DNA from: Bemisia tabaci
Taxonomy: Eukaryota > Arthropoda > Insecta > Hemiptera > Aleyrodidae
NCBI RefSeq assembly: GCF_918797505.1
Contig: NC_092797.1
Location: 53,418,157-53,482,156, forward strand
Length of the DNA stretch: 64,000 bases
Direction of reading: 5' to 3'
Shown here: positions 1 to 46,082 of the stretch, in pieces
Position numbering within the stretch: position 1 is the first letter of the stretch
Layout of the letters: the number at the start of each line of letters is the position of its first letter
Made by a program: the position numbers and the translations under genes
The notes under the pieces: generated by a model
Database searches by the model: none
Told to the model about the DNA's origin: nothing
The model's input: only the letters and a program-made list of their open reading frames with translations

Positions 1-2293
1 ATCTCCATTTATTTATTGAGATAATATTCTGATTGATGTGGTGTCACTTTGACTTAACTGATGGTCATCAGGTTTTTGACATGCATCGAATTCAATTTCG
101 CAGAGAAAGTCTCACTTTCATCTACTTTTATATCTGAGAGTCGACCTCAGGGATGGGAAAAAGTGAGTGGGAGTTTGAAAATTTCAAGCAACTTTGCAAA
201 CTTGTGATATTATTATCATATATATAGTTGAGAAAAAAGCATAGAAAATTAATTACAAATATGTCTTTGGAGGTTCAGTAAATCCCTCTTTTGCTTGTTC
301 TTTTTCCTTTAATAAAATAATCCGTAATAATAAAATCCATAAACACAGCTAGGGATGTCCTCGAGGGAAGGTCCTCTCCAAAAACTGATGTCAGTTTGGT
401 GGTACCAGAACAGTTCAAAGCGTATTTAAGCGCTTAAAACATAGACTCTAAATAGGTCCTTGCCTCCAACGAAAAATCCCTAGCCACGCAAACGATTTAT
501 TCACACTTTAACGAATCGATATGCTAAATTTTTAAACATTTTAAACACATAACCACGTTTAAAAAAAAGTTTCAATTGGGGTCTTTATTCAAGGGAGCAG
601 TATTGCTGGTTTTCATGTACCACTAGCTCCTGCGATGAAAGTATTTTTTCAAAAAAAATAATAATAATGAATTTTATCAATTTTATGATTGGCTTAGAGC
701 GTCTACTTGGCATTGACTACGTCCATCACAAGTCGCGAGTGAAATGTATAAGTTATCCCGATCGAAAAAGCATCACGCACCACGAGACTACGAAAGAAAG
801 GAAAATATTTTTATGTGTCAGAGAGCGACGGTCACCTGCTTAAAAGCTTATTTAATATTTGACACCATTACTTAATTAACTAGTCCTAAATGTCGCATGA
901 TGTTGGTGGAGGCGCCTGGGAAAGTTATTTAAGCTCCGTCGACGAATTATGAATAATTCCTCAAATCCAACCTTGAGACGAACAGGCGTGTCAGGCCCAA
1001 TTTCATGCTGCTGACCCGAATTCTCCGGGAAAAATGATCGAATTGAAAAATGTCCAAAGTATGTGTCAGTCAGAGCTGTGTCTTGCCGCTATTATTTTTA
1101 CTATTACCACTGTAAAAATGGGAGGCAAAGTCTGATTGTGATTCGGAATAAATCCATTTTTGCCACGAGCGTTTGACCTTTAGCATTTCAATCGGACTGC
1201 ATTCAGCAGACAAGAACGAAGTTTTTGATGAGCTCTTTCAAAATCAGGTTTTTTAAAAGTAAATAGTCCAATTTGTATGCCTAGTTTTGGATAGTGTAAA
1301 ATAATTTTGGTTCCTCTCTGCAAAATTTAGAGGTATAGAGTCTATATTGGGCTATGGGACAATAAGAAGAATGGGTGGGTGATTGTGTGATGTTGATGGT
1401 CAAATTCTCGTAGCTGCTCTGATTTTATTCAAAATCATAATTCCAATGAAAGATGTGACTAATGTTAGCTGAGATCAGTAAAAAATGTAATTATTTATCT
1501 GTTATTTGTAATTCTACTAGTTATCTCTATCAGGAATGATAGGAACGCGGGCCACTGATGGCATACACTCTTTTGGAGAGATAATAAACGAACGCCTTAT
1601 GAAGTAAACATGTAGTCATGTGTAGTAAAACATGAAGTTAAGGTGGCCATCACTGCGGTATATGCGGAATGATGCGAATAAAGTAACTTTTACATCTTCT
1701 TTCCATTCGTCGACGTCATAAATATCTACCATTCCCGAACCCCTCCCCTCCTTAATGTATGCCGCGGGTGTTTAAATCAGAATGAAATCGCCCAATTGTC
1801 CAGCGATGAATATCTTGATGCCTCAATAATTGCACACTCATGAAAACGTCCACTCAACGCGGGAATTTGCATTTAGCCAACTGCTGACTTACTCTGCGTT
1901 GTCGATTAGTCAGGAATACCCAGGAATATCGTGAATACTGAGAATGCCGTGAAGCAGGTTAATATTTGTATGAAATTTGTTTCGTCGCTGCATTCGTGGA
2001 CTTTAAACTAAGCGGGGGAAAATGAGTGCGTACACGAGCATTGCGACTCTAGGGCCGAGTCCTAGGATGACGTTACCAAGATTCTGGGTAGGTATCAGCC
2101 CCAAAAGTGCAGGACTAGACACTAATCCGGGCTGGTTACCCTACGTAATCTAGGTAATTCAATTTACCTTCCTCTCTTTGCATGGATACCAGAATGCTTT
2201 CACAGATCATGCAAAAGAATATTGACTTGCAGTTTAGACGGAACTTCTTCAAACCATATAGGTTGATCCAAGGGTGGGCGTAAGAAGCGCATG
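1..2293. other. no gene or repeat recognised
   Basis: AT-rich sequence without long frames or inverted ends that I can pair. Confidence 0.5.
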
Positions 2294-2311
2294 CCCCCCC
2301 CCCCCCCCCCC

Positions 2312-2939
2312 GTTCGCTTTAAAAAAGAAGAAAGAAGAAAGAGGAAAGGAACGGTGGGAAAAAGAAGGAAGGGCGAAGAAATTTGGTAATTATTCGTGAC
2401 GAAATTGACTCAAATTGCATGTAAAATGCTTCAAAATGTTGAAAATTATCTGGGGGAATCCTCCCGGGCTTCCTCCTCCACCCCTCCCCCCCCCCATTTG
2501 CAATGCCTAGATCCGCCTTTGTCTTCATATAAAAAAGTGGGTGAATTTCAAGCAGGAACCTTCATCGTAAGATGTCACGTTGGGAAGAAAATACAAAAAG
2601 AACATTCTTGGCGCAAACCAGAGGTCACCGGTTCAGAATGGCAGAAAATTGATACCTTGGTAGTTTATCAGCCGATTTGGATGAAACTTATCAGGGATTC
2701 CGTGGGTTTTTGGCACGAAACTGTAGAAATAATGTCGGTATTCGATGACGTGGAACTGGCTCATCGCGAAGTGATGCATGAGGAATGCTTTGAATTTGAA
2801 CTTCCACCGTTACGTCGCATTCCGCGGTAGGGTCTCAAAAATCCTCGGGAATGGTTAAACGTGTGGATTGGTCTTCCCTGTTATCACCACTTTATGGGAA
2901 TTTTATTAATTTTACATTTTCTTCTCATCGTAATCCATA
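2312..2939. other. intergenic; 144-codon frame not supported
   Basis: The frame at 2396-2830 begins in low-complexity sequence and continues through GGATGAAACTTATCAGGG, a phrase common in arthropod repeats. I see no domain. Confidence 0.4.
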
Positions 2940-2947
2940 GTCGACGG

Positions 2948-3422
2948 CATAGGCGTAGCTAGGCCATTTTGCTGGGGGGCGCACTTGGGGGGTATGGAAT
3001 ACCCCCAGGTCAGCGGGGGGTCCGGGGGGCCTCCCCCGGAAAATTTTTGAAATTTTAACTCTATTTGAGCGCATCTCGAGGCACTTGTGGCGTTAATCTT
3101 CCTTCAATTTCTGCATAAAATTCACCCAGTTTTATGCATTTTAAGGTTAAAATACTTTGAAATTGTTGCATTCAACAGGTTATTCCATTTATTTTCTCAC
3201 TTTTAACCACTCATTTGTGTGAAAATTGCGAAATAAATGTTTAGTGAATGCCAGAATCATGCCAGAGGCATCCTCTCACGGGCCACGGCGACAGAGACTT
3301 ACCGTTAAAGATGGTGTTTTTGCACCATCCAGAATTTCTGGGGGGGGGCCAGATGATACTATTTCCAATTTTGGGGGGGGCCAGGCCCCCCCTGGCCCCC
3401 CCCCCCCCTTCCTACGCCACTG
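2948..3422. mobile_element. hAT-like element K with exact 8-bp duplication
   Basis: It starts CATAGGCGTAGCTAGG and ends CCTACGCCACTG. GTCGACGG flanks both sides exactly (2940-2947 and 3423-3430). The interior has G/C-rich blocks such as GGGGGTCCGGGGGGCC. The Gly/Pro-rich frames across 3226-3547 are shadows of these runs. Confidence 0.85.
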
Positions 3423-3434
3423 GTCGACGGTAAG

Positions 3435-3784
3435 GGAGGATATGGATTCGATCGACATGAATCGATTGAAAAATAATAACGTGAACCGATCGACGTGATT
3501 TGATCGATGCACGCGTTTGTCGATCGATTCACCGGTTTTCCAAACAAATGACGGATTTGTCGATCGATTGACGTATTAGTCGATCTATTGACAGATTTGT
3601 CGGTCGATTTACGGATTTGTCAGTCGATTAATGGGTTTTTCGATCGAATCATGGAGATTGATTTACGTTTTAACTTTTCGCTTTAACCGACCGGGTTTTT
3701 TGACAATTTATCCATCAAATCGGTTTCGATCGATTCAAGTTTTCATTTTTCAATCGATTCATGTCGATCGAATCCCTACCCTCC
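3435..3784. repeat. CGATCGATT foldback with short tandem units
   Basis: Arms GGATTCGATCGACATG (3444 on) and CATGTCGATCGAATCC (ending near 3775) are inverted. Between them, units like ACGGATTTGTCGATCGATT repeat about every 21-22 bases from about 3515 to 3640. Confidence 0.75.
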
Positions 3785-3794
3785 GAAGGTAATG

Positions 3795-4168
3795 TGGACG
3801 TATTTATGCTAAAAGGAACTATGTGCAAGTGGAAAAATGGAGTGTGCTCGTGGTGAGCTGAATAAGAAACAATGTAAAAGTGGACATAGTTCCTTTCGAG
3901 AAAATGGAAAAGCGAGATTTTACATTAAGTCAAAAGGAACTCGCTAACTGCGCTAACCCGTGAGCCACGGACATGTGACGAGAGCCTTGTGGTCAGGGCT
4001 CATGAGTTAAAGCGCCCCGACGACGAGCTCGTCGTTGTCGTCGAGCCCGGTCGTCACCAATGACGTCACTGGCGCTTCAAAATTCCCATTCATTCTTATG
4101 GCCCTCAACTACCGATCACAATCCAACTTTCCACTTGCACATAGTTCCATTAATCATAAATACGCCCA
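3795..4168. mobile_element. family G element, copy G1, uninterrupted
   Basis: TGGACGTATTTATGC with GGAACTATGTGCAAGTGG at the left mirrors CCACTTGCACATAGTTCC and AATACGCCCA at the right. It serves as the empty-site reference for F3 in G2. Confidence 0.8.
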
Positions 4169-4609
4169 GGTGATATGAGTGCTTTTCTCAGAACAGGTCG
4201 ACTACACCGTGAGTCGGGAGATCGGAAATCTTCGAACTGGACATGCAAAGTGCGAGCCGCGTTTCGTCACTTTGAACGTTTCAATTTGCCGCCTGTTTAT
4301 CCATCGTAACGGACGAGAAGGACACCTGCTTTGTGCCTTCTGTTCTGACATGACATCTCGCCGAGTTCGCCCCGTCCCCGTCACGAGAGCATCGATGACG
4401 CAAAATTGATAACGCTACGGCCACACGTCACGAACTTGTTCTTTTGTTCGAGTCCCCTTTCGATCTTGGTTGAAGTGATGAATTTATTGGTTTCAAAATG
4501 GAGTAACTTCAAAATTGTATTGTTCTGGGCCCGAATTTCGTCGGAAAAACTGGGGACCAGCGTGCTTAAATGTACTTAGGTTTAGGCATAATCGCACTTA
4601 AGTCCATTT

Positions 4610-4997
4610 GGACAGCATTTTGAAATAAGGAAGCACCGAATCATAAGGTATAGGACTCATTTTTGAAACAGCATATCGACGGTGTAAGTCGGCAATCACA
4701 TAACTCGTTTGCGGTGTCTGAAAATCTCCGCCTCTAAATTATTTTTTTAAAAGCGAACTAATTCACATCATTCTGTGGAATTTATGCCAAATTTTCTTGC
4801 ACAGAGAAGAAAAATCACGGCAGTTTTAAAGAATTGCCGTTGAGTAGTTTTCCGTTCAAAAATAAAGTATGACAGGAAGTCTGCGACGTCGAAAACCGAG
4901 TAATGTGATTGCCGACTTACACCGTCGATATGTGACATTGGTTTCCCTATGCAGAAAGCTGCCTTTATGGATATTGGTTCCTTATTGCAAAATGTAA
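4610..4997. mobile_element. family I element, copy I1, split by H1
   Basis: GGACAGCATTTTGAAATAAG and the mirror TTATTGCAAAATGTAATCC are family I ends. H1 interrupts the middle. Joined flanks would read GAAACAGCATATGTGACATT, as in intact copies. Confidence 0.65.
4673..4931. mobile_element. family H MITE, copy H1, inside I1
   Basis: ATATCGACGGTGTAAGTCGG mirrors CCGACTTACACCGTCGATAT. ATAT at both ends may be target duplication or terminus, since it is self-complementary. Confidence 0.8.
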
Positions 4998-7001: not shown

Positions 7002-7985
7002 AATGTCTTGACTGTACGAGAGTCTAGGTAATTCAGTCAAAATTTCAAGACAGGAGAAGGATCAAAAAGATCTTCAGAGTTGACACTATGTTAAAGAACT
7101 CTAGGTCACTATGTGTCACGAAAGTAATTTGTATTCAAAAATCAATGTGTGTGGTGTTTGTATCGGGCCTGGTCATGTATCGATCTCATAATGTATTATA
7201 TCAAAATATTGTAATGAAATATCATTACTGCACAGAGAATTTAACTAAATCAGTAAACTTTCTCTAAAAGCAGCAGTGTACCTCAATTACGGTCTTAATT
7301 GTAAGAGTTTTTTTTATGAGCTCGAAAGTTTACCTCAGAGAAAAGTGGTAGTGGGACTTATCTATGGCGCCATCGTGTGCGAGGCAAAATTTTACATAGA
7401 GCCGGATCATTTAATCTAGAATCCCCGCAACATGCAAAGAGCTCCATTATTAGTTGCCTCAACGAACTCGGAGACCAATTTTGCAATCATCATTCGGCGT
7501 TAATTGTTTTCCATGCAAAATCTAGCGACAAAAAGTGCGGAAAGGTATTGCGTAAACGAGTCGCATATCGAGTATGAAACTTTGCTTACTGACCCACGGA
7601 TTTTCACGACCATCCGGTCGCCAGGTCCTCCGGGTGAGGCAACGCATCGGCAGGTTTGACAGCGCTTGTTTTCTCTCATTAGCTTCGTTCTTGCACTAGT
7701 TGCTTTCAGTTTAATCATATAATCGCCGAGTCAAACGCGGGACTTGCCCTGAAAAAACAGAAAAGGGATCTAGTAAGATCTCCCTGCTTTACTTTGATAG
7801 GAGCAATGAAGTTCTTGCGTATGCCGCCGGGAATTCCGATTTAATCATCTAATTCCGCTGTGAAATTTCGCGGAATATAAGTCGATGCCGCTGATTCCGC
7901 AAATAAGTGGTTGAATCAAAAATACCTGCAGCATGCAAAAACTCCTGGAAACAGCCCATTTGATCACGAAGAAAATCTGCACATA

Positions 7986-8238
7986 CTGCCGTGCTAAGGA
8001 AGAACGCCGTATAAACATTCGAGAGTTGCCAAATTTCCCTCGATAAAACATGTAGTTTTGACAACATTCATGCATATTTTCCTTGAAATTTTCAGATATT
8101 AAGAGGTAAAATTCCGTATAGAATTGTCTGAAAATTGTGGAAAATAATATTCACAATTTTCTCAGTCAATTCGGTCTTTATCGGAAGAGACTTGGCAAGG
8201 TCTGAAGGCTCATACGGCTTTCTTCCTTAGCATGGCGG
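7986..8238. mobile_element. family A MITE, copy A1
   Basis: It is bounded by CTGCCGTGCTAAGGAAG on the left and its mirror CTTCCTTAGCATGGCGG on the right, with the family interior (GAGAGTTGCCAAATTTCC, then TTGAAATTTTCAG). Flanks CATA and TACA no longer match. Confidence 0.85.
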
Positions 8239-8900
8239 TACAACCCTCGACTATTTCAACCATGTTCAAGCAAAAGTCCGATTGAACCAAGAGTGCTTTT
8301 TCTCGTCAAATTTTTACGAGTCTGGACATTAAATTTAAGAGACTCTTTTTTTCAGCGCAGGGTTGACTCGCGGGGTCCAAAAGGCAAAATGAGCAAAGTA
8401 AGCAGTAACGACTGGTTTAAAAAGTATTTTTTAAGAAACTTTTGGTTTACCGGGTCCTTTCGGGTTTTAATGAATTCAGCCCCGAGTCGTCGGGTGAAAA
8501 ATTCGATTAAAATTTCTAAGCCACGGAACAGGTGGATGGGCTCGGATGGAAGAAACCTACATGCTAATTGAAGGTTCCGCGTTTGGTCCACATTCATATC
8601 ACTTTCACCGGGCCGGCTCGTGTTGTACTTTCATTGCCAACCGTCCGCGAATTTCGGCGGTTACTCCGCGACGCACGGCGCGAAGGTCTCCCCCCCCCCC
8701 CCCCCCCCCGGGATCGCGTTGACCGCGGAGTCTTTTACGATTTTGTGGTCCGAACCTCGACAAGGTAAAACTGTCGAATCCCTCGAGTTCAGTGGCGAGG
8801 CGTGAATGATCGATCAGCGATATTTCCCCATTTGAAGCTGTCGTGGAGAATCGATTGTTACGGTATCCGCTGAGAACACCCTGTTTATCGATCCTTTTCC

Positions 8901-9720: not shown

Positions 9721-10022
9721 TGGACGTATTTATGCCAAAAGGAACTATAAGCATGGGGTTTGCATGCACTGGAAAAAAACACATTGGATCTTGAGTCCAG
9801 ACTCTTAAAAACATCGACAAGAAAAAATACTCTTGATTCAATCCTATTAAGCTTAAATCAAGAACCAAATCTCTTAATTTGAGCGGATTTCCTTTTGATT
9901 TAAGCTTAAATCTGATTGAATCAAGAGTCCTTTTTCTTGTCAATGTTTTCAAGAGTCTGGACTCTAGATCCAATGTGTTTTTTCCAGTGTGGGACAGAGT
10001 TCCTTTCAGCACAAATCTGTCC
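9721..10022. mobile_element. family G element, copy G3, split by a family F element
   Basis: The ends TGGACGTATTTATGCC and CACAAATCTGTCCA match G1 and G2. F1 occupies 9767-9989. Confidence 0.7.
9767..9989. mobile_element. family F palindromic MITE, copy F1
   Basis: It begins CACTGGAAAAAAACACATTG and ends in its mirror AATGTGTTTTTTCCAGTG, with paired ACTCTTGATTCAATC blocks inside. TG flanks both ends. Confidence 0.85.
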
Positions 10023-15729: not shown

Positions 15730-18700
15730 GCGGAGCGATGTGATGCCGGCTCCTCAAATTCCTACCCAATTAACACGCGTTCCGCCCAATTAACTCCGCT
15801 CGATCAAAGGCCGACGAATCGAAAAACAAATCCTTCGTCTCTCGCTTGTCTTTGACCCTGTTAATGCTCCTATTACCGATGTACTTGCATTATTCTCACC
15901 GACCAAGTTTGCATTTGACACGAGCTTAAAACACTGACTAACTGGTTCTGATAAGGAACTTTCAAGTACTACTTGTCAGTACTTGTGCCACGAGACTGAC
16001 CCAACAGCCGCGCTTGGTCCATGTGGAGAAATGAAACTCGATTCAATGGTGTGGTCAAAAAATTTTCATGTCGGGGATCTACTGTCAAGCACTTGGGGAG
16101 TTCAAAAGTAAAACAAATCCTAAAAATATCAAAAAATGGCATGTTTTTGGAAAATTTGCATTTTAGGGGTGTAAGGGTAAGGGCCTCACATCAGGGGAGG
16201 TTTTGAAAGCATGAAAAGAAACTCCACTAAGGCGGATTTAGGGAATTTCCCTAGCATCAAAAGAGGGGAGCCTGGTCCAGAAAATGTTGAAAAATTGAGC
16301 CGCCTCTGAGGCAACTTTGAGCTCCCCATCGAAAAGTTGATCCAATTACAATCTCGAAAATGAAAGCGCAAATAATTCGGTTCCCCAACACAACGAGTCT
16401 GGTCCACGACAAAACGAAAAACCACGATTGGTAGACTCTCATTGACGTAATGAGTCCCACTTTCCTCAATATGCGTGTACTTATCTCGTTCGTTTAAATT
16501 TAAAAGCTTCGCTTCAAGCTTGTGCTCCGTTTTGCCGGGATCAACGGAGGATGGAATAAGACGTTTACTGCGCTGTCGTGCTAAGGAAGAACGCCGCATG
16601 AACATTCGAGAGTTGCCAAATTTCTTTCGGTAAAATGTTTATTTTTAAGAAAAGTTATTAAGGTTTTTCCTTGAAATTTTCAGGAACTTTAGGTGAGATT
16701 GCGAACAAAATTATCTGAAAAACTGAAAGAAAAATATTTACAAATTTTTCCGAAAATTCGTGATTTACCAACCGAAATTTAGCAACGCCTGAGGGTTCAT
16801 ACGGCGTTTTTCCTTAGCACGGTGGCAGTGCAGTTCACGCTCGCGACAACAAGGCACAACGGGTTCCAACTCTTTTGCGCGGTGTTGCCGTTCTTAAGGT
16901 GAAATTGGCCTTTGCTGCACTGCCGCTTATGTGCGAATCAGGGGATTCTCTGGTGATATGGCGACGATGGGTCGCGTCACGTCTTTGAACTGACTTTAAT
17001 GTGTCATTATGGAGTTTGTAAATAAATTGCCGAGCCGCGGCGTGGTGCGGCTACTCCTTTTGATTGATGACCTTAAATTTCGCGCCGTACAGTCCTCGTA
17101 ATTGAAATTCCTACCGTAGAGAGACCTCCCGAACTCTGGTCGGGCCAACTTTCTGCCGTCAATCCTGGAGGAATAAAATTTTAGTCCACATGGCACAACA
17201 AAACTTTCGATTTAGGTATCCGAAGTGCTAGGTTATCATAAAGTCAGGCCCCGGTCCAGGTTATAATAATAGCTGCAAGTCTATTTTGATGGTGTATAGT
17301 CGTCTCCAATTAAGAAATTTGACAGAGTCATAGTTTTATTTGAAAATATCTAATTTGAATTTAAGTAAAGTTTGAATGTTTTTATAATGAATTGTGCGAA
17401 AATGAGTAACTCCTTATAATATCTGATTTCAGGAAAAAATTTTCATCACAAGGGGCCCAGAAGGTCGCTGGATCCCCCTACGAAATTATCATCTTCCCCA
17501 AGGATTGTCCATTGTCGCAGATATTAGGAAAATTTGATCAGTTGACGCCTCCATCCTCCCCCACCACGAGACGTACTTTACAATGCAATCCTTTTTTTAA
17601 GAATTTGTGTTTTGCAACTTCTTCTACAACTATGGATGATAAAAATATGAAAATGTGTGCTTTGATTTGATTTGCACCTTGGCCTGAGTTTTCATGCCAA
17701 AAATTTTCGAGAAGGACCTGCTAGCGACAAGTCCTGGATTTATCTCTATCAGGATACATAATGACAGGTTTTGTCTTTTATCCTTTCCTGATCACACTGA
17801 AAAATAGCTAAAATAATAACAAATTCATTTGAGTTCCCATCTAATCTTCCTCTCTTCCTCTGTCTTCATATTTTACTCAATGGTTGAAACTATCAGAACT
17901 ATATTATTTGTCATATTAATAATTTAAGAAATGTGTGCAAAAATGCGTACGGAATCAATTATTGATTTTTCTGGGCCAAGGTCGGTGCTTCATTAAATCA
18001 TTGGTCGCTCGCAATAAATATCGGCAATGAAGTTCGTCTGCGTTCACCAAATTTTTCCTGATCTTTCTTTGCTATTGTTTCATTCTATTCGAAAAACGAT
18101 GAAGTACATGCCTCAAAGGCCGCGTGATACTCTGCGTGAAAGTAATTTGGGAGCTTCGAAAGGTGCGACACAAAAAAAACCAACTTTATAGCAATGAATA
18201 ATTTAATTATATGGCCGTTCCTATGTTGATACCAATTTTTATTGCTTTTACAGCTTTCCGAATTTATTTTATTGCTTTTATTGTCAAGTTGCATCATTTT
18301 TTTACAATGCAACCTTATTCTCATTTCATGTTGGTTTCATTTTATTATTTTATCGATTAAAATCATCAGAAGACGGGTCAGTATAGTTTTGAAGGGGAAA
18401 ATAAAAACATGTGATCGGTCACAGGAAATGAGACTTTGAGGTAAAATGTCACGGCGAGTTATTTTTGCCAGGTTGTATCGGGAAATTGAAATTTAAGGTC
18501 TTGCGAAAATCACTTTTTTATATCCTGAGCAATAAACTGAGAACACTTGGAAAAAGTAACTTAGTTCAAGATAACGAACTACGATTTGTGGTGCCCTTTT
18601 TTGAACTTTCCAGTCTGAACAGCAGAACTTTCCGGTACATAGACTGAATCCCCGTCGGGTCAACCGAAGTTTTCATTGGGCAAACCAAGACTCACACAGG

Positions 18701-21305: not shown

Positions 21306-21896
21306 CACAATTAAATTCTTTTGCGCATTCATCGCGAAATGCGGATCCCGGGGTTTATGCAGCAATCGCCGCGCTCCGCAAGTCCGGGCGGATTTCTATT
21401 AAGGATCTGGGGGCATCGCTCTAGAATTACGCGCAATTATGGACATGCATACGGCCTAGGGAATATCGGTGACTCGCGTACCTTGCTTAACGCGGTTAAC
21501 AATTATTTAGCCACTCAACGCGCTTCGCTTAAGAGCGGGTATCCCGCAGTAATGCTCACAAATTAATAAGCTGCCGGGCATAATTGACTGAATGATTGCA
21601 GTCCTTAAAAACCACTCGGACGAGCCAGAGACAGACACAATGCGCCGTGAACCCAAGCGTTTCTGTATCTGTGTGAACGCTCCACTCTCGAAATGAGGAA
21701 CTGAAGATTTCGTTGGGACGTCACGCAGGTTCAAGATCAAGATCGGACGCAGTGAGCTTCTAAGGAGAATCTACGGTAAATAGTTCCGGGATAATTCCTC
21801 TTAGATATTTTGACTCATTATGGGTTCCAGTCCAGTTAGTTTAAAAAAAAACCGAATACGATGATGGTCAACTGCTAAACCACGCTGTCGTGCTAA

Positions 21897-21981
21897 CAAG
21901 GGGAGTCTACGAAGTGACATCCTGGGATTGGGTTCATTTTGCTTGTACATGAAGAAGAGACAAATCTAAGGTTGACGTATT
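21897..21981 (+). repeat. left 85-bp terminal inverted repeat of the composite element
   Basis: It is the reverse complement of 23873-23957, with no mismatch seen on reading both. Such identity implies recent mobility or gene conversion between the arms. Confidence 0.9.
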
Positions 21982-22008
21982 AGTGTATTTTCCGAAGGAA
22001 ATACACTA
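21981..22008. other. perfect 10-bp hairpin next to the left TIR
   Basis: TAGTGTATTT pairs with AAATACACTA around an 8-base loop TCCGAAGG. Such subterminal hairpins occur in some foldback elements. No function is implied. Confidence 0.6.
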
Positions 22009-22105
22009 TTGCATTCTCCCATGATGTCGGACCCAGACCTGAGACATTGTGAAGAGCACCGATCACGGGTCGTAGATCACGAAAATATATGCTATTCAAA
22101 TTCAT

Positions 22106-22164
22106 GTGTATATATATATGTATATATATATGTATGTATATATATTGTATGTATGTATGTATTT
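22106..22164 (+). repeat. TA/TGTA microsatellite
   Basis: Alternating TATATG and TATGTATG units run for about 60 bases inside the composite element. They give spurious short frames rich in Tyr, Ile and Met. Confidence 0.85.
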
Positions 22165-22532
22165 CCGCCTTTTGAAGATTTTTCGATTTTTGAGTGGTTA
22201 TATCTTTCTTACGTTGAAAGATATTTTGACCAATTTTTTTGCATTTTGTAGAGACTCATTAGGACTACTATTCTGCGAAAAAAAATTGAAATTTGAGGCA
22301 ATAGATTTTGAGGGGTGGGGCTCGAAAGTGGGGGGAGGTCAAATCTTGTCCACTCGATAACTCGAGCGAAAATGAATATTTTGAGCTGAAATTTTTTACG
22401 GGTGGTAGTTCTCCCCTAGGACTGGTTTGGTATTGAATTTGAGCTAAATCGGCCGAGCCGTTTAAAAATGGCGAGCTTTGAAAGTTTTAGGCGAGGGGTG
22501 CGCGGCATGAGGGGAGCCGGCCGGAGCAGGGC

Positions 22533-22681
22533 CGCACAGTGGGTCGGGGAAGAAAGTTTTTGGACAAGCTGATCGTCGCACAGTGGGTCAGGGGAGAGAA
22601 GTTTTTGGACAAACTTTTCGTCGCACAGTGGGTCAGGGAAGGAAGATTCTGGACAAATTGTTCGTCGCACAGTGGGTCAGG
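22533..22681 (+). repeat. 44/45-bp tandem array, about 3.4 copies
   Basis: Units start at 22533, 22577, 22622 and (partial) 22666, each opening CGCACAGTGGGTC and continuing with an AGTTTTTGGACAA-like block. The 13-base start is nearly the same as the ends of family D elements in this window (CGCACAGTGGATC). The minus-strand frame over it is only a repeat shadow. Confidence 0.85.
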
Positions 22682-23159
22682 TTAAATGATCTGTTCTTGA
22701 ACAAAATCTCACCATTTAACCGTCACAACCTTTCGCAGCGCGTTCGCTGGCAACGTACGCAACTACTATCTTGTGCTCAAGAAATTAATTCATTCCCTTA
22801 CAGATTGGTCCCCCCCCCCTTCGGAAAATACACTCTTCCCGCGGTGGACGCGCGGGTCGCTTAAGAAGACAGAACAACTGGAATGGACACTCAAACTAAA
22901 AAGCGCGCGCGAAGCGCGCGTCCTGGGGGGGCTTGGGGGGGCGAAGCCCCCCCAAAAAACCGGCGCGGAGCGAAGCGGAGCGCCGGTTTTTTTTTTTTTT
23001 TAGCCGCCAACTCCCAACCGTTCTCGAGATATGGATTTTTAAAGTTACGATTTTTGCACGTTTCCGCGCGGAGTTCCGGCGAGTCAACTGAGCGCCGGCA
23101 AGCTGCACGAAGCGCGTTTCCTATCAGCGCTGCAGACCGACAGTCCTTATCAACAGATC

Positions 23160-23232
23160 CGTGGCCGAGTGGTCGAGTGTTCGCCTACTGTTCCATCGAT
23201 CGCGGGTTCGAATCCCGCTTCATGCCGTAGCT
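23160..23232 (+). promoter_or_regulatory. tRNA-like pol III promoter (A and B boxes), left arm
   Basis: TGGCCGAGTGG fits an A box and GGGTTCGAATCCCGC fits a B box with a clean T-arm (GCGGG/CCCGC). The expected acceptor stem does not pair, so it is not a working tRNA. It looks like a SINE-type promoter pointing into the palindrome. A TTTTT at 23254-23258 would stop pol III after roughly 100 bases. Confidence 0.6.
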
Positions 23233-23636
23233 TTTAGGGTACGCCGCAATGCGTTTTTACAAGTTTTCTTTATTTTTATCACACACCAAGGGTCCGCCCC
23301 CTGGCCGCTGCGCGGCCCAACCCCCGGGCAAAAAGGCGCGCTTCGCGGCGAGCGAAATCATCGAAATCGACCGTTGACGGTTACTGGGTAAATAATTTTA
23401 ATTGAATGATAAAATGATGTTTCAAATAAAAATTTCCCACCACACAATATTCTTAATGACTTTTTCCTTACTCAGAATTTGCAACCGTCAACGGTCGATT
23501 TCGATGATTTCGCTCGCCGCGAAGCGCGCCTTTTTGCCCCGGGGGTTGGGCCGCGCAGCGGCCAGGGGGCGGACCCCTTGGTGTGTGATAAAAATAAAGA
23601 AAACTTGTAAAAACGCATTGCGGCGTACCCTAAAAA

Positions 23637-23710
23637 CTACGGCATGAAGCGGGATATGAACCCGCGATCGTTGGAACAATAGGCGAACACTCTACCACTC
23701 GGCCACGAAA
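23637..23710 (-). promoter_or_regulatory. tRNA-like pol III promoter, right arm
   Basis: This is the mirror copy of the left unit on the minus strand. The A box TGGCCGAGTGG is intact. The B box has changed to GGGTTCATATCCCGC, which breaks the usual TTCGA core. The two promoters converge. Confidence 0.55.
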
Positions 23711-23872
23711 CTGTTGATACGTATGGCTGGTCTGCAGCGCTGATAGGAAACGCGCTTCGTGCAGCTTGCCGGCGCTCAGTTGACTCGCCGGAACTCCGCG
23801 CGGAAACGTGCAAAAATCGTAACTTTAAAAATCCATATCTCGAGAACGGTTGGGAGTTGGCGGCTAAAAAAA

Positions 23873-23957
23873 AATACGTCAACCTTAGATTTGTCTCTTC
23901 TTCATGTACAAGCAAAATGAACCCAATCCCAGGATGTCACTTCGTAGACTCCCCTTG
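23873..23957 (-). repeat. right 85-bp terminal inverted repeat of the composite element
   Basis: It mirrors 21897-21981. Its outer end ...CCCCTTG abuts the TAA target duplication and the resumed family A sequence TAAGGAAAAACGCC. Confidence 0.9.
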
Positions 23958-24204
23958 TAAGGAAAAACGCCGTATGAACATTCGAGAGTTGCCTTTCCCC
24001 GGATTGAACAAGCATTTTAGATGAAAGTTATGCATATTTTAACTTGAAATTTTCGGATATTTTAGATTAAATTGCAAACAAAATTTTATGAAAAAATATT
24101 CAAAATTTCCTCAGTAAGTAAATTTACTTCTTATTGAAGAAAAATTGGCAATGTCTGAGGGCTCATACGGCGATCTTCCTTAACAAGGCAGCACGTGTCT
24201 TCAT

Positions 24205-25812: not shown

Positions 25813-26044
25813 CACTGGGAAAAAAAAGTCGTTTGGATCCAGAGTCTAGACTCTTAATAACATTGACAAGAAAAAATACTCTTGATTCAATCAGACTTTT
25901 TGCCTGAAACAAAAGGAAATCCTCCTAAATCAAGAAGCTTGGCTCTTCAATTCAAGAAAAAGTCAGATTGAATCAAGATTATTTTTTCTTGTCAATGTTA
26001 TTAAGAGTCTAGACTCTAGATCCAACTGACTTTTTTTTCCAGTG
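25813..26044. mobile_element. family F palindromic MITE, copy F2
   Basis: Ends are CACTGGGAAAAAAAAGTC and GACTTTTTTTTCCAGTG. The arms pair along GGATCCAGAGTCTAGACTC and ATACTCTTGATTCAATCAG. Confidence 0.85.
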
Positions 26045-31682: not shown

Positions 31683-32405
31683 TTCTCATTCACGGGCAGT
31701 TATTGGACCCACCATGAATTTCCTCTACTCTACGTTTTTTGCTCATCGAAGGTCTTCACTTAATGTGATGCATCATTATTTCGTCACCTTCCAGGCAAAG
31801 TATCACAAGCGCCATGCGACGTTTAAAAATTTCCGCCGCCTTTATATTTTTTTACAGAGAAATTCTTCAACGAAGCTGTTCGAAAATTTCACTGAATTTT
31901 CTTTGTGCTGCCGATGAAATTTAGCGAAATTTCCAAACCGATTCAACCAACAATTTCTCAGTAAAGAAATAAAATGGCGGCGGAAATTTTTAAACGTCGC
32001 ATGGCGCTTGTGATACTTTGCCTGGAAGGTGACGATTTGGCCATTTTCGGTCTCTTTTTGGGTCTAATACTGGCCCGTGTATGAATTCGAGGGCCAGTTT
32101 TGGCAGAAAATGCAGGTTCGCGGTCGAATGTGAAAAATCCACACTTTCCGCCACAATCGGTCTTCAGTTTAATGCATAGGCTAGTATTAGACCCTTAAAG
32201 AGACCAAAAACGACCAAATCATGATGCATTCCAAAGGACCTTCCATGAGCAAAGAATCGTAGAGTTAAAGAAATTCAGCAAGGGTCGGGTGGGTCATAAA
32301 CGGCCTTTAGCGATATCCCTATTTTGGGTTTTTTTTTGGACAAAGTTTCTTTATCATATACCCTAAGCGATCACACTATTATGAATAACACAGGGTAAAG
32401 TTCAA

Positions 32406-39249: not shown

Positions 39250-39502
39250 TTGCCGTACTAAGGAAAAACGCCGTATGAGCCTCCAGGCGTTGCCGAATTT
39301 CCTTCGATAATACACGAATTTCCCAGGAAACTTATGAATATTTCCCTTCCAATTTTTTAGACAATTTCATTTGCGATTTCATCTAAAGTTTCTGAAAATT
39401 GCAAGGAAAAATGTCCATAACTTTCCTCAAAAATAAACATTTTATCGGGGAAAATTTGGCAACTCTCGAATGTTCATACGGCGTTCTTCCTTAGCACGGC
39501 AG
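39250..39502. mobile_element. family A MITE, copy A9, exact TACT duplication
   Basis: Ends are TTGCCGTACTAAGGAA and TTCCTTAGCACGGCAG. TACT lies at 39246-39249 and 39503-39506. The GC-rich exon candidate begins just after it. Confidence 0.9.
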
Positions 39503-39607
39503 TACTGTCACTTGCGGAGCCTTGACGGGGATTTAGGTTAGTAATGGCGGGAACGGCACCTTGAGGCGAGGGTCCGAGCGTCGGAACCGGGGATCCACGC
39601 CGGGACG

Positions 39608-44949: not shown

Positions 44950-46082
44950 TCTCACACGAATGTCGTGTTCTCTGTGTAAACTGAAAGACCATCCACCATA
45001 AACGTATGTGTTCAAACTGTTCCAAATTTAATTTTGATCGTTTCCAAAAACTCTAAACCGATTATTAAGAAGTTGATTCAAGATGTCCTGTCATTCGACT
45101 GTATGAAGATATTTTTACTCTGTAAAAATATTGCCGACGATGCAGAGGTCTACCTACTTGAGCGCATCACAAGCAAACAGGATAAGCAGTTAACGAAATT
45201 ACTGGAGTGGAACCCTGAGTAGGACGCCTGCCTCTCTTAATAATTTCTGATTCTCTGTCAACAGGTGGAGAAGAAAGTTTTCTGCACGGAAAACCAGCCA
45301 AGTGACATGCATGAGCAAAAAGTCAGGGGCACTGTCATAACATTCGTATACTCATTCATGGAACTTTTCGAATCGAGGCTCACAGGTTGTATATGATTGC
45401 TAATGCTGCCGTGCTAAGGAAGAACGCCGTGTAAACATTCGAGAGTTGCTAAATTTCCGCAGATAAACAATGTATTTTTGACGAAATTTATGCGTATTTT
45501 TCCTAGAAATTTTCAGGTATTTTAGATTTTATCGCGAACATTACTGTCTGAAAATTTTGAGGAATAATATTCAAAATTTTACCAGGAAATTCAATTTTTA
45601 TGAAGGAAATAGGGCAATGTCTGAAGGCTTATACGGCATCTTACTATCCGCATGCAGGAATGCCAGAATGACCCTGACATAACTGGCATTCTTCCTCAGC
45701 ATGGCAGAATGACCCTAAAAAACATGTTTCTAAATGCGTAGCTACCTGTATTTCTTACACCACATTGTTTTTCCGTCGAAGGCGCACGATGTATATCATC
45801 AATGATTTTTCGAATTATTATACATCAAGATTCATGTAATAAGCCATTTTAGTGACTCAAAGTGACTTTGTTTCCTCAAAAACTGTTTCATCAGGTTCAC
45901 GTCATCTCAAAATTGATGGTTATGATAAACCCTGAAGTCTGCAATTTGACACATCAGCAAACATCGAGGAAAATTATTTAATGGAGCTGGCGTGCAGGGA
46001 GTTCAAAACGCATTTTTCTGCAATTGAAGCGGGATTGGCAGAAATACATTCATGTTTGCGGGAACTGTTTCGAAAGAGGTAA
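44950..46082 (+). pseudogene. decayed or fragmentary coding remnant of unknown kind
   Basis: Several neighbouring plus-strand pieces read like protein. Near 44960-45060 there is CSLCKLKDHPP followed by RMCSNC in a shifted frame, giving paired CxxC motifs. From 45034 to 45225 a frame includes FDCMKIFLLCKNIADDAEVY. From 45265 the same frame resumes after three stops with VEKKVFCTENQPSDMHEQ, just behind an acceptor-like TCTGTCAACAG. From about 45957 a different frame reads ENYLMELACREFKTHFSA and ends at AAAGAG/GTAAGC (46081). A family A MITE (45406-45707) sits between the pieces. This may be a dead transposon gene, a pseudogene or real short exons. I cannot name the protein. Confidence 0.3.
45406..45707. 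mobile_element. family A MITE, copy A11, exact AATG duplication
   Basis: Ends are CTGCCGTGCTAAGGAAG and CTTCCTCAGCATGGCAG. AATG lies at 45402-45405 and 45708-45711. A short internal duplication of CAGAATGACCCT near the right end makes it longer than its siblings. Confidence 0.9.

Follow-up and report, generated by a model that had tools for sequence, protein, structure and literature searches.

A nested transposon insertion in Bemisia tabaci and a foldback element family with conserved, convergent pol III-type promoter motifs

Nested transposons at the locus

The stretch of DNA analyzed here, referred to as the window, comprises 64,000 nucleotides of Bemisia tabaci contig NC_092797.1 (GC content 40%), and the feature under study is a 2.06-kb block at positions 21897-23957. 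The initial annotation had described this block as one composite element, a palindrome within a palindrome with identical 85-bp ends and a duplicated TAA. The terminal features were borne out: 21897-21981 and 23873-23957 agree at 85/85 positions, TAA is present at both 21894-21896 and 23958-23960, and the empty site can indeed be read from intact copies of an AT-rich MITE (family A), which carry GTGCTAAGGAAG where the window has GTGCTAA, the element and then TAAGGAAA. A second inverted repeat also exists inside the block (22993-23874; 90% identity over 892 aligned columns, including arms of 309 nt with 94% and of 67 nt with 96% identity), but it turned out to be merely the rest of the outer element's own arms.

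The block consists of two transposons, denoted here as F and H, nested in a third one, a family-A MITE. All 17 complete sister copies recovered in the first search show the 85-bp end continuing directly into the inner arm, with no DNA between them. Because of this junction, the outer and inner palindromes constitute a single palindrome of 1.05 kb, and the segment from 21982 to about 22992, lacking in the sister copies, is a foreign insertion. This insertion, H, splits the window copy of F after 21981, that is, behind its first 85 bp. When the genome (610 Mb, 151 contigs) was searched with 21897-22100, the 40 of 1011 candidates that were scored included 39 further places, all of them starting at query position 77-85 (the inner edge of the 85-bp end) and with identities of 98-100%. 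H recurs without the ends of F at 39/39 of these places, and its nesting in F was absent from every other F copy read. A single composite family was, therefore, rejected on the basis of the sister copies without the insert; nor is a layout of nested palindromes supported for the family. The order of insertion was family-A MITE, then F, then H, because F lies in the end of a MITE whose empty site is known, and H splits F. Thus, the block represents a nested insertion and no new transposon layout, and it illustrates that nested insertion is able to mimic one. The features are as follows (with the basis for each in parentheses).

21894-21896: TAA duplicated at the left target site of F, part of CTAAG in the family-A MITE (empty site in intact family-A copies)
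21897-21981, + strand: outer left end of F, 85 bp, identical to 23873-23957 inverted (sequence comparison and sister copies)
21982-22992, + strand: H, HINE-like, 1.0 kb, right limit uncertain within the T-run 22987-23001 (recurrence without the ends of F)
21982-22007, + strand: 5' end of H, palindromic subTIR AGTGTATTTTCCGAAGG plus hairpin (inverted repeats and copy comparison)
22109-22163, + strand: TATG-type microsatellite of H (direct-repeat listing)
22533-22681, + strand: central tandem repeat of H, 44-45 bp (direct-repeat listing)
22818-22834, - strand: internal 3' copy of the 17-bp subTIR of H, 100% complementary to 21982-21998 (inverted-repeat listing)
22954-22992, + strand: GC-rich 3' hairpin of H and start of the T-run (inverted repeats and copy comparison)
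22993-23382, + strand: remainder of the left arm of F (inverted repeats and sister copies)
23383-23482: central spacer of F, 100 bp (inverted-repeat listing)
23483-23957, - strand: right arm of F, including the right outer end 23873-23957 (inverted repeats and sister copies)
23958-23960: right target-site duplication TAA of F (window sequence)
23961-24191: rest of the family-A MITE hosting F, the preceding TAA being shared (alignment to family-A copies)

H is a 1.0-kb element built like the non-autonomous Helentrons (HINEs), and it is likely of this rolling-circle kind. These elements are described, in the accessible part of PMC4067079, as having a palindromic 5' subTIR, a second subTIR inside the 3' end, a 3' hairpin, a microsatellite, central tandem repeats and a T-rich target, and H resembles the HINE/DINE-1 group in each of these traits. 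Its subTIR pair (21982-21998 and 22818-22834) is complementary at 17/17 positions, with the inverse copy lying 819 bp further in, and a 13-bp GC hairpin is found within 22954-22992. TATT or TTTT directly precedes H in 8/8 copies (the window included), and a run of 6-15 T closes it in the 6/6 copies with a readable 3' end. In contrast, its 3' subTIR is located about 152 bp from the 3' end, while the same part of PMC4067079 gives 38-60 bp for mite HINE families. The tandem array and the GC-rich snap-backs that the initial annotation had assigned to the composite element do exist, but the 44-45-bp array belongs to H, as does the microsatellite, and so do the snap-backs at 22907-22992; GC-rich stretches also occur in F, nearer its center. 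The remark that no superfamily shows such a layout was resolved once the block was split into F, with a C|TNA|G target, and H, with mostly HINE anatomy.

Other repeats are present in the window. Family A is an AT-rich MITE of about 250 bp with many copies (e.g., 7983-8240, 16572-16831, 39251-39505 and 45403-45640), with ends like GTGCTAAGGAAG and pairwise identities of about 65-81%. Further short palindromic repeats occupy 9767-9989, 25813-26044 and 31781-32035, and they are 84-86% self-complementary over their full length.

Copies, target sites and class of F

F is a palindrome of about 1.05 kb (1048-1082 bp in the 17 complete copies of the first set) with CAAGGGGAGTCTACG-like ends. The genome search with the 85-bp end, proposed in the initial annotation, recovered sister copies, and the possibility of a single-copy feature was excluded by the 72 + 73 = 145 exact genome-wide matches of the terminus pattern TNACAAGGGGAGTCTACGAAGTG (control, 0). 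Among the 100 places listed for this pattern (45 of the 145 termini fall outside them), the termini group into 40 pairs, of which 37 have a spacing of about 1.05 kb, plus 20 unpaired ends. The three longer pairs correspond to the window copy, a copy with a 4.5-kb insert and a copy with a 2.3-kb Helitron-like insert; the initial annotation had proposed to look for a longer copy with a transposase, and the longer copies of F proved to be split by other insertions. Neither a coding relative of F nor a transposase with its ends was found among the loci read, scans of viral contigs with both ends yielded 0 matches, and no phage records were found.

The 4.5-kb insert (L066, G000:C3:6044600-6050400, about 461-4966) has inverted ends of ~60 bp (AAGCGGGATCGAAGTTCC...) and a GTAC target duplication, lies a few bases past the T-run of the left unit of F, and its longest listed reading frame wholly inside has 105 aa. 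The 2.3-kb piece (L085, G000:C4:49981805-49985260, about 593-2889) splits its host near the center and contains a 357-aa reading frame matching Helitron_like_N (E 1.2e-16); the end motifs of H were not found in L085. Elsewhere, a truncated F end adjoins a Copia-like element.

Sixty near-complete copies were aligned: the window copy, 29 recruited with the 85-bp end and CTAA flank, 14 with the left arm and 16 with an end pattern (the first 20 bp of the terminus plus a TNA flank). The queries behind 43 of the 59 non-window copies favor identical ends or similar arms. The alignment excludes copies that are truncated, split or heavily degraded (L017 with L085, one copy; L025 with L062, one copy; L086 with L093, one end; L038, L065, L088, L090-L092, L094, L096 and L097). 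The identity between arms averaged 97.3% (90-100%) over 444-472 nt of the ~1050-bp element. Equal 3-bp duplications flank 53 of the 60 copies, and all of them are TNA (TTA 16, TAA 16, TCA 14, TGA 7), with C before and G after in 45/53; these flanks are biased by the query towards TAA/TTA in the first set and towards TNA in the third one. The second set, recruited with an interior query and, hence, unbiased in its flanks, gave TCA 7, TGA 1 and TTA 1, with 8/9 in CTNAG. As for the seven copies without an equal duplication, an indel near the end shifts the boundary by one base in L050, L063, L064 and L089, and the duplications are genuinely unequal in L036, L052 and L055. Taken as a whole, the suggestion of a mobile, non-coding foldback family with target duplications and near-identical copies found support.

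Solo arms of F, 181-182 bp long, were also observed, two of them in tandem in L091 (G000:C2:2483200-2485800, 180-542) and one in L038 (1185-1366). All three break directly after the internal CTGA of CTGAG, a CTNAG site, and L092 shows a comparable break at 188 bp. They possibly reflect self-insertion, or cutting, at F's own internal target.

The C. elegans Tc4 is a foldback element with long, nearly full-length inverted repeats. According to the accessible text of PMC11071193, Tc4, a member of the DDD clade of Tc1/mariner, uses a C|TNA|G target of which only TNA is duplicated, its consensus sequences have been deposited for nematodes and arthropods, and it is present in tardigrades. We infer from the arms and target that F is a Tc4-like foldback element. 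Classical PIF/Harbinger, the first guess from TAA, was excluded because 21 of the 53 duplications are TCA or TGA and violate the TWA target duplication given for these elements in the accessible part of PMC4482050. The same part reports that NuwaII, which is placed in the PHIS superfamily, uses C|TNA|G sites as well, so F might instead belong to NuwaII and be served by a Harbinger-like DDE transposase. The 103 DDE_Tnp_4 matches in the genome would be in line with this idea. However, the consulted portion of PMC4482050 does not mention long foldback arms, and the one DDE_Tnp_4 group whose ends were read (2 copies, 99.9% identical) has unrelated ends. We, therefore, consider membership in NuwaII improbable and retain the Tc4-like assignment.

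The two members of that DDE_Tnp_4 (Harbinger-like) group, L099 and L100 (G000:C1:9781600-9786400 and C1:76663600-76668400), have inverted ends of about 855 bp. Their 99.9% identity over 4.2 kb, together with 18 DDE_Tnp_4 matches that have the same score (a 681-aa open frame is present in 13), makes it likely that this transposon was active recently.

Pol III-type units and diversity along F

Each arm of F, throughout the family, carries an A box (TGGCCGAGTGG), a B box (GTTCGAATC) and TTTT, arranged so that both units face inwards. The A and B boxes are separated by 44 nt start to start, and TTTT follows 17 nt after the B box. In the window copy these elements are located as follows.

23162-23172, + strand: A box of the left unit, TGGCCGAGTGG (motif scan)
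23206-23214, + strand: B box of the left unit, GTTCGAATC (motif scan)
23232-23235, + strand: TTTT of the left unit, a terminator-like run (motif scan)
23632-23636, - strand: T-run of the right unit, read on the - strand (window sequence)
23653-23661, - strand: B box of the right unit, off-consensus in the window copy, GTTCATATC (motif scan)
23695-23705, - strand: A box of the right unit, TGGCCGAGTGG (window sequence and copy alignment)

The convergent pol III-like units proposed in the initial annotation were thus recovered, with a full motif on the left and one B-box base short of it on the right. The A-box/B-box/TTTT motif occurs once in the 64-kb window (the left unit), compared with 0.05 expected from 40 first-order random sequences. 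Neither ARAGORN nor Rfam called a tRNA in the window, and at an ARAGORN threshold lowered to 50%, most units among the matches listed give low-scoring, mutually inconsistent candidates, which were disregarded. The 22-mer A-box core TGGCCGAGTGGTAGAGTGTTCG has 95 exact matches in 610 Mb. Seventy-six of them are arranged as 38 convergent pairs, with a spacing of about 516-555 bp in 37 and a wider one, caused by an insertion, in the other, and 18 of the 19 single places are within known F copies, the remaining one being C5:7045834. A SINE or dispersed tRNA donor was rejected, given that 94 of the 95 cores are in F copies or F-like convergent pairs. As the core is almost confined to F, the unit belongs neither to a SINE nor to a host tRNA gene family. 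Counts of covarying column pairs (31 under the true pairing vs 11-26 under five false ones) likewise led to the rejection of an RNA fold conserved outside the promoter.

Diversity along F was profiled as the mean pairwise diversity among the 16 copies recruited by the terminus pattern. Values were 0.015 and 0.018 for the outer ends, 0.021 and 0.015 for the arms, 0.026 for the center, 0.082 and 0.053 for the GC-rich parts, and 0.148 and 0.144 for the two units. Just upstream of the A box, diversity was 0.30-0.39 in the left unit and 0.31-0.33 in the right one; it was 0.025 and 0.013, respectively, in the 10-bp bin holding 8 of the 11 A-box bases, and midway between the boxes, in the spacer, it rose to 0.30 and 0.28. 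The first part of the B box gave 0.072 and 0.025, and DNA downstream in the units, 0.20-0.25. The second B-box half is not low in diversity (0.149 and 0.100), mostly at the free positions 7 and 8 and the purine position 5, the latter being always A or G (44 copies). Overall, unit DNA outside the boxes is six- to tenfold more diverse across copies than boxes and backbone. For the 15 specified box positions, the true register was the lowest of 58 (0.030; the next, one base off, 0.032), and none of 100,000 sets of 15 positions drawn at random from the cores was as low in diversity as the boxes. All specified positions were intact in 102 of 120 units, both units being hit in just 3 of 60 copies. 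Judging by their sequences, the two arms evolve together, since both units of one copy share lineage variants: across 44 copies, arms of one copy differed by 0.045 and arms of different copies by 0.110, the minimum over 10,000 permutations being 0.091.

One explanation for this profile is that the units are hypermutable: transcription-associated mutagenesis would raise the rate around the boxes, which would merely be protected by bound factors, with no selection. This notion was favored at first, because the per-site difference is larger in the units than elsewhere for 20 of 22 disjoint copy pairs (1 tie, 1 reversed). These pairs contain 352 unit changes in 291 sites vs 184 in 759, an excess that is inflated for the closest pairs because pairs were picked by small backbone distance, and young pairs show, for instance, 0 vs 11 or 1 vs 6 changes. 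In each arm, diversity is highest over the predicted transcription unit and the DNA flanking it, and elevated mutation in tRNA gene flanks is reported in the accessible part of PMC8113476. Private alleles are, as this notion would have it, up to about twice as dense in the unit cores (107 in 240 sites vs 103 in 404 sites of arms, center and tails, 1.75 times denser). However, alleles found in at least four copies are 17.6 times denser (94/240 vs 9/404 sites), and a rate difference alone would hardly yield both figures. With box positions removed from the cores, the core and backbone spectra differ at p = 8e-11, a value that, like the other allele-spectrum p-values, is optimistic since copies are related and alleles not independent. 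The allele spectrum, therefore, speaks against mutagenesis as the main cause and weakens pure hypermutation, the earlier leading idea; the mutation rate in the cores may still be raised by up to about twofold. Strand-specific transcription damage was weakened too, given the symmetric sense-strand spectrum (C>T 32, G>A 27), and CpG decay was rejected as the source of unit diversity, non-CpG sites being equally or more variable. All considered, an explanation by mutation rate without selection is unlikely.

A second alternative, which we regard as less probable still, is a recent sweep of the backbone, with the units representing older diversity reshuffled by recombination or gene conversion and the boxes being functionless tRNA-derived relics. 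Such a sweep would be expected to leave the same skewed spectrum, and backbone alleles are, in fact, skewed to rare ones (103/147 private). Moreover, the correlation of unit distances with backbone distances is weak (Spearman 0.40), and the nearest neighbor by units differs from the nearest by backbone in 36 of 60 copies (ties included). On the other hand, no repeat that could have served as donor was observed: exact copies of the unit core are almost confined to F, and 0 of 152 unit matches fell outside F in 101 sequences, most of which were chosen because they contain F. Identical boundaries in both arms would also be hard to obtain by conversion tracts.

The boxes can be compared with their own surroundings. 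The 30 specified box sites have 9 private alleles, 6 present in two or three copies and 1 common allele (at least four copies), vs 98, 96 and 93, respectively, in the 210 other core sites. Common alleles are, therefore, 1/16 in the boxes and 93/287 in the rest of the cores, a difference of modest significance (p = 0.027), and box and backbone spectra do not differ (p = 1). As the rest of the backbone is equally conserved, it is only relative to the adjoining unit DNA that the boxes are distinct.

A proposed role for the promoters and comparison with known elements

The scarcity of common alleles in the ends, arms, center and boxes, and their abundance in the remaining unit cores, suggest that the former mutate but their mutants seldom multiply, while the rest of the units drifts. 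Being kept while the neighboring DNA varied, the boxes are predicted to matter for the spread of F. We hold with moderate confidence a joint reading in which F is a palindromic element split by the HINE-like H, moved by a Tc4-type transposase from elsewhere, and endowed with pol III promoters that are predicted to be transcribed and selected for spread. A Tc4-type transposase supplied in trans would move F, pol III or TFIIIC would bind its units, and conversion at a foldback intermediate would homogenize the two arms. The benefit of the promoter might be, for example, that TFIIIC holds the chromatin of F open for the transposase. The stronger proposal, that F is a cut-and-paste transposon dependent on pol III, with convergent promoters under selection, pol III/TFIIIC binding in the germline and arms repairing each other, is doubtful at present and is offered tentatively.

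At the level of observation, the locus gives the nesting order, the copy family, the target site and the anatomy of F and H; A and B boxes are conserved in both arms against far more diverse neighbors, and variants are common to both arms. TFIIIC bound at the boxes could itself lower mutation there, without selection. Also against the joint reading, the entire non-coding backbone would have to be constrained along with the boxes, and the right B box is broken in the window copy. If the conservation is functional, TFIIIC chromatin opening or replication timing would be a way for a non-coding DNA element to become more mobile. If mutation is its cause, F, with its dozens of copies, would offer a natural array to measure pol III transcription-associated mutation.

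The new point concerning F is the presence in its sequence of conserved, convergent pol III-type promoter motifs. Pol III promoters are the engine of SINEs, and we know of no textbook reason for a DNA transposon to conserve them. Like tRNA-derived SINEs, F has internal A and B boxes and a short T-run; in contrast to them, its ends are inverted, its target duplication has a fixed length of 3 bp where theirs vary, it lacks a 3' tail, and its unit core is not dispersed outside F. A search by title and start of abstract found no published MITE with pol III boxes or tRNA-like foldback, although one may exist in print. PMC11893794 deals with the promotion of 7SL expression by a PIF/Harbinger-derived protein.

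Among cut-and-paste elements, NuwaII shares the C|TNA|G target with F, but F lacks a DDE or Myb/SANT gene, and foldback arms are not mentioned for NuwaII in the consulted section of PMC4482050. Tc4 and F have in common both this target (C before and G after 45/53 duplications in F), with TNA duplicated, and arms that extend over nearly the whole element. F differs from Tc4 in being a 1.05-kb, non-coding element with a pol III-type promoter motif in each arm.
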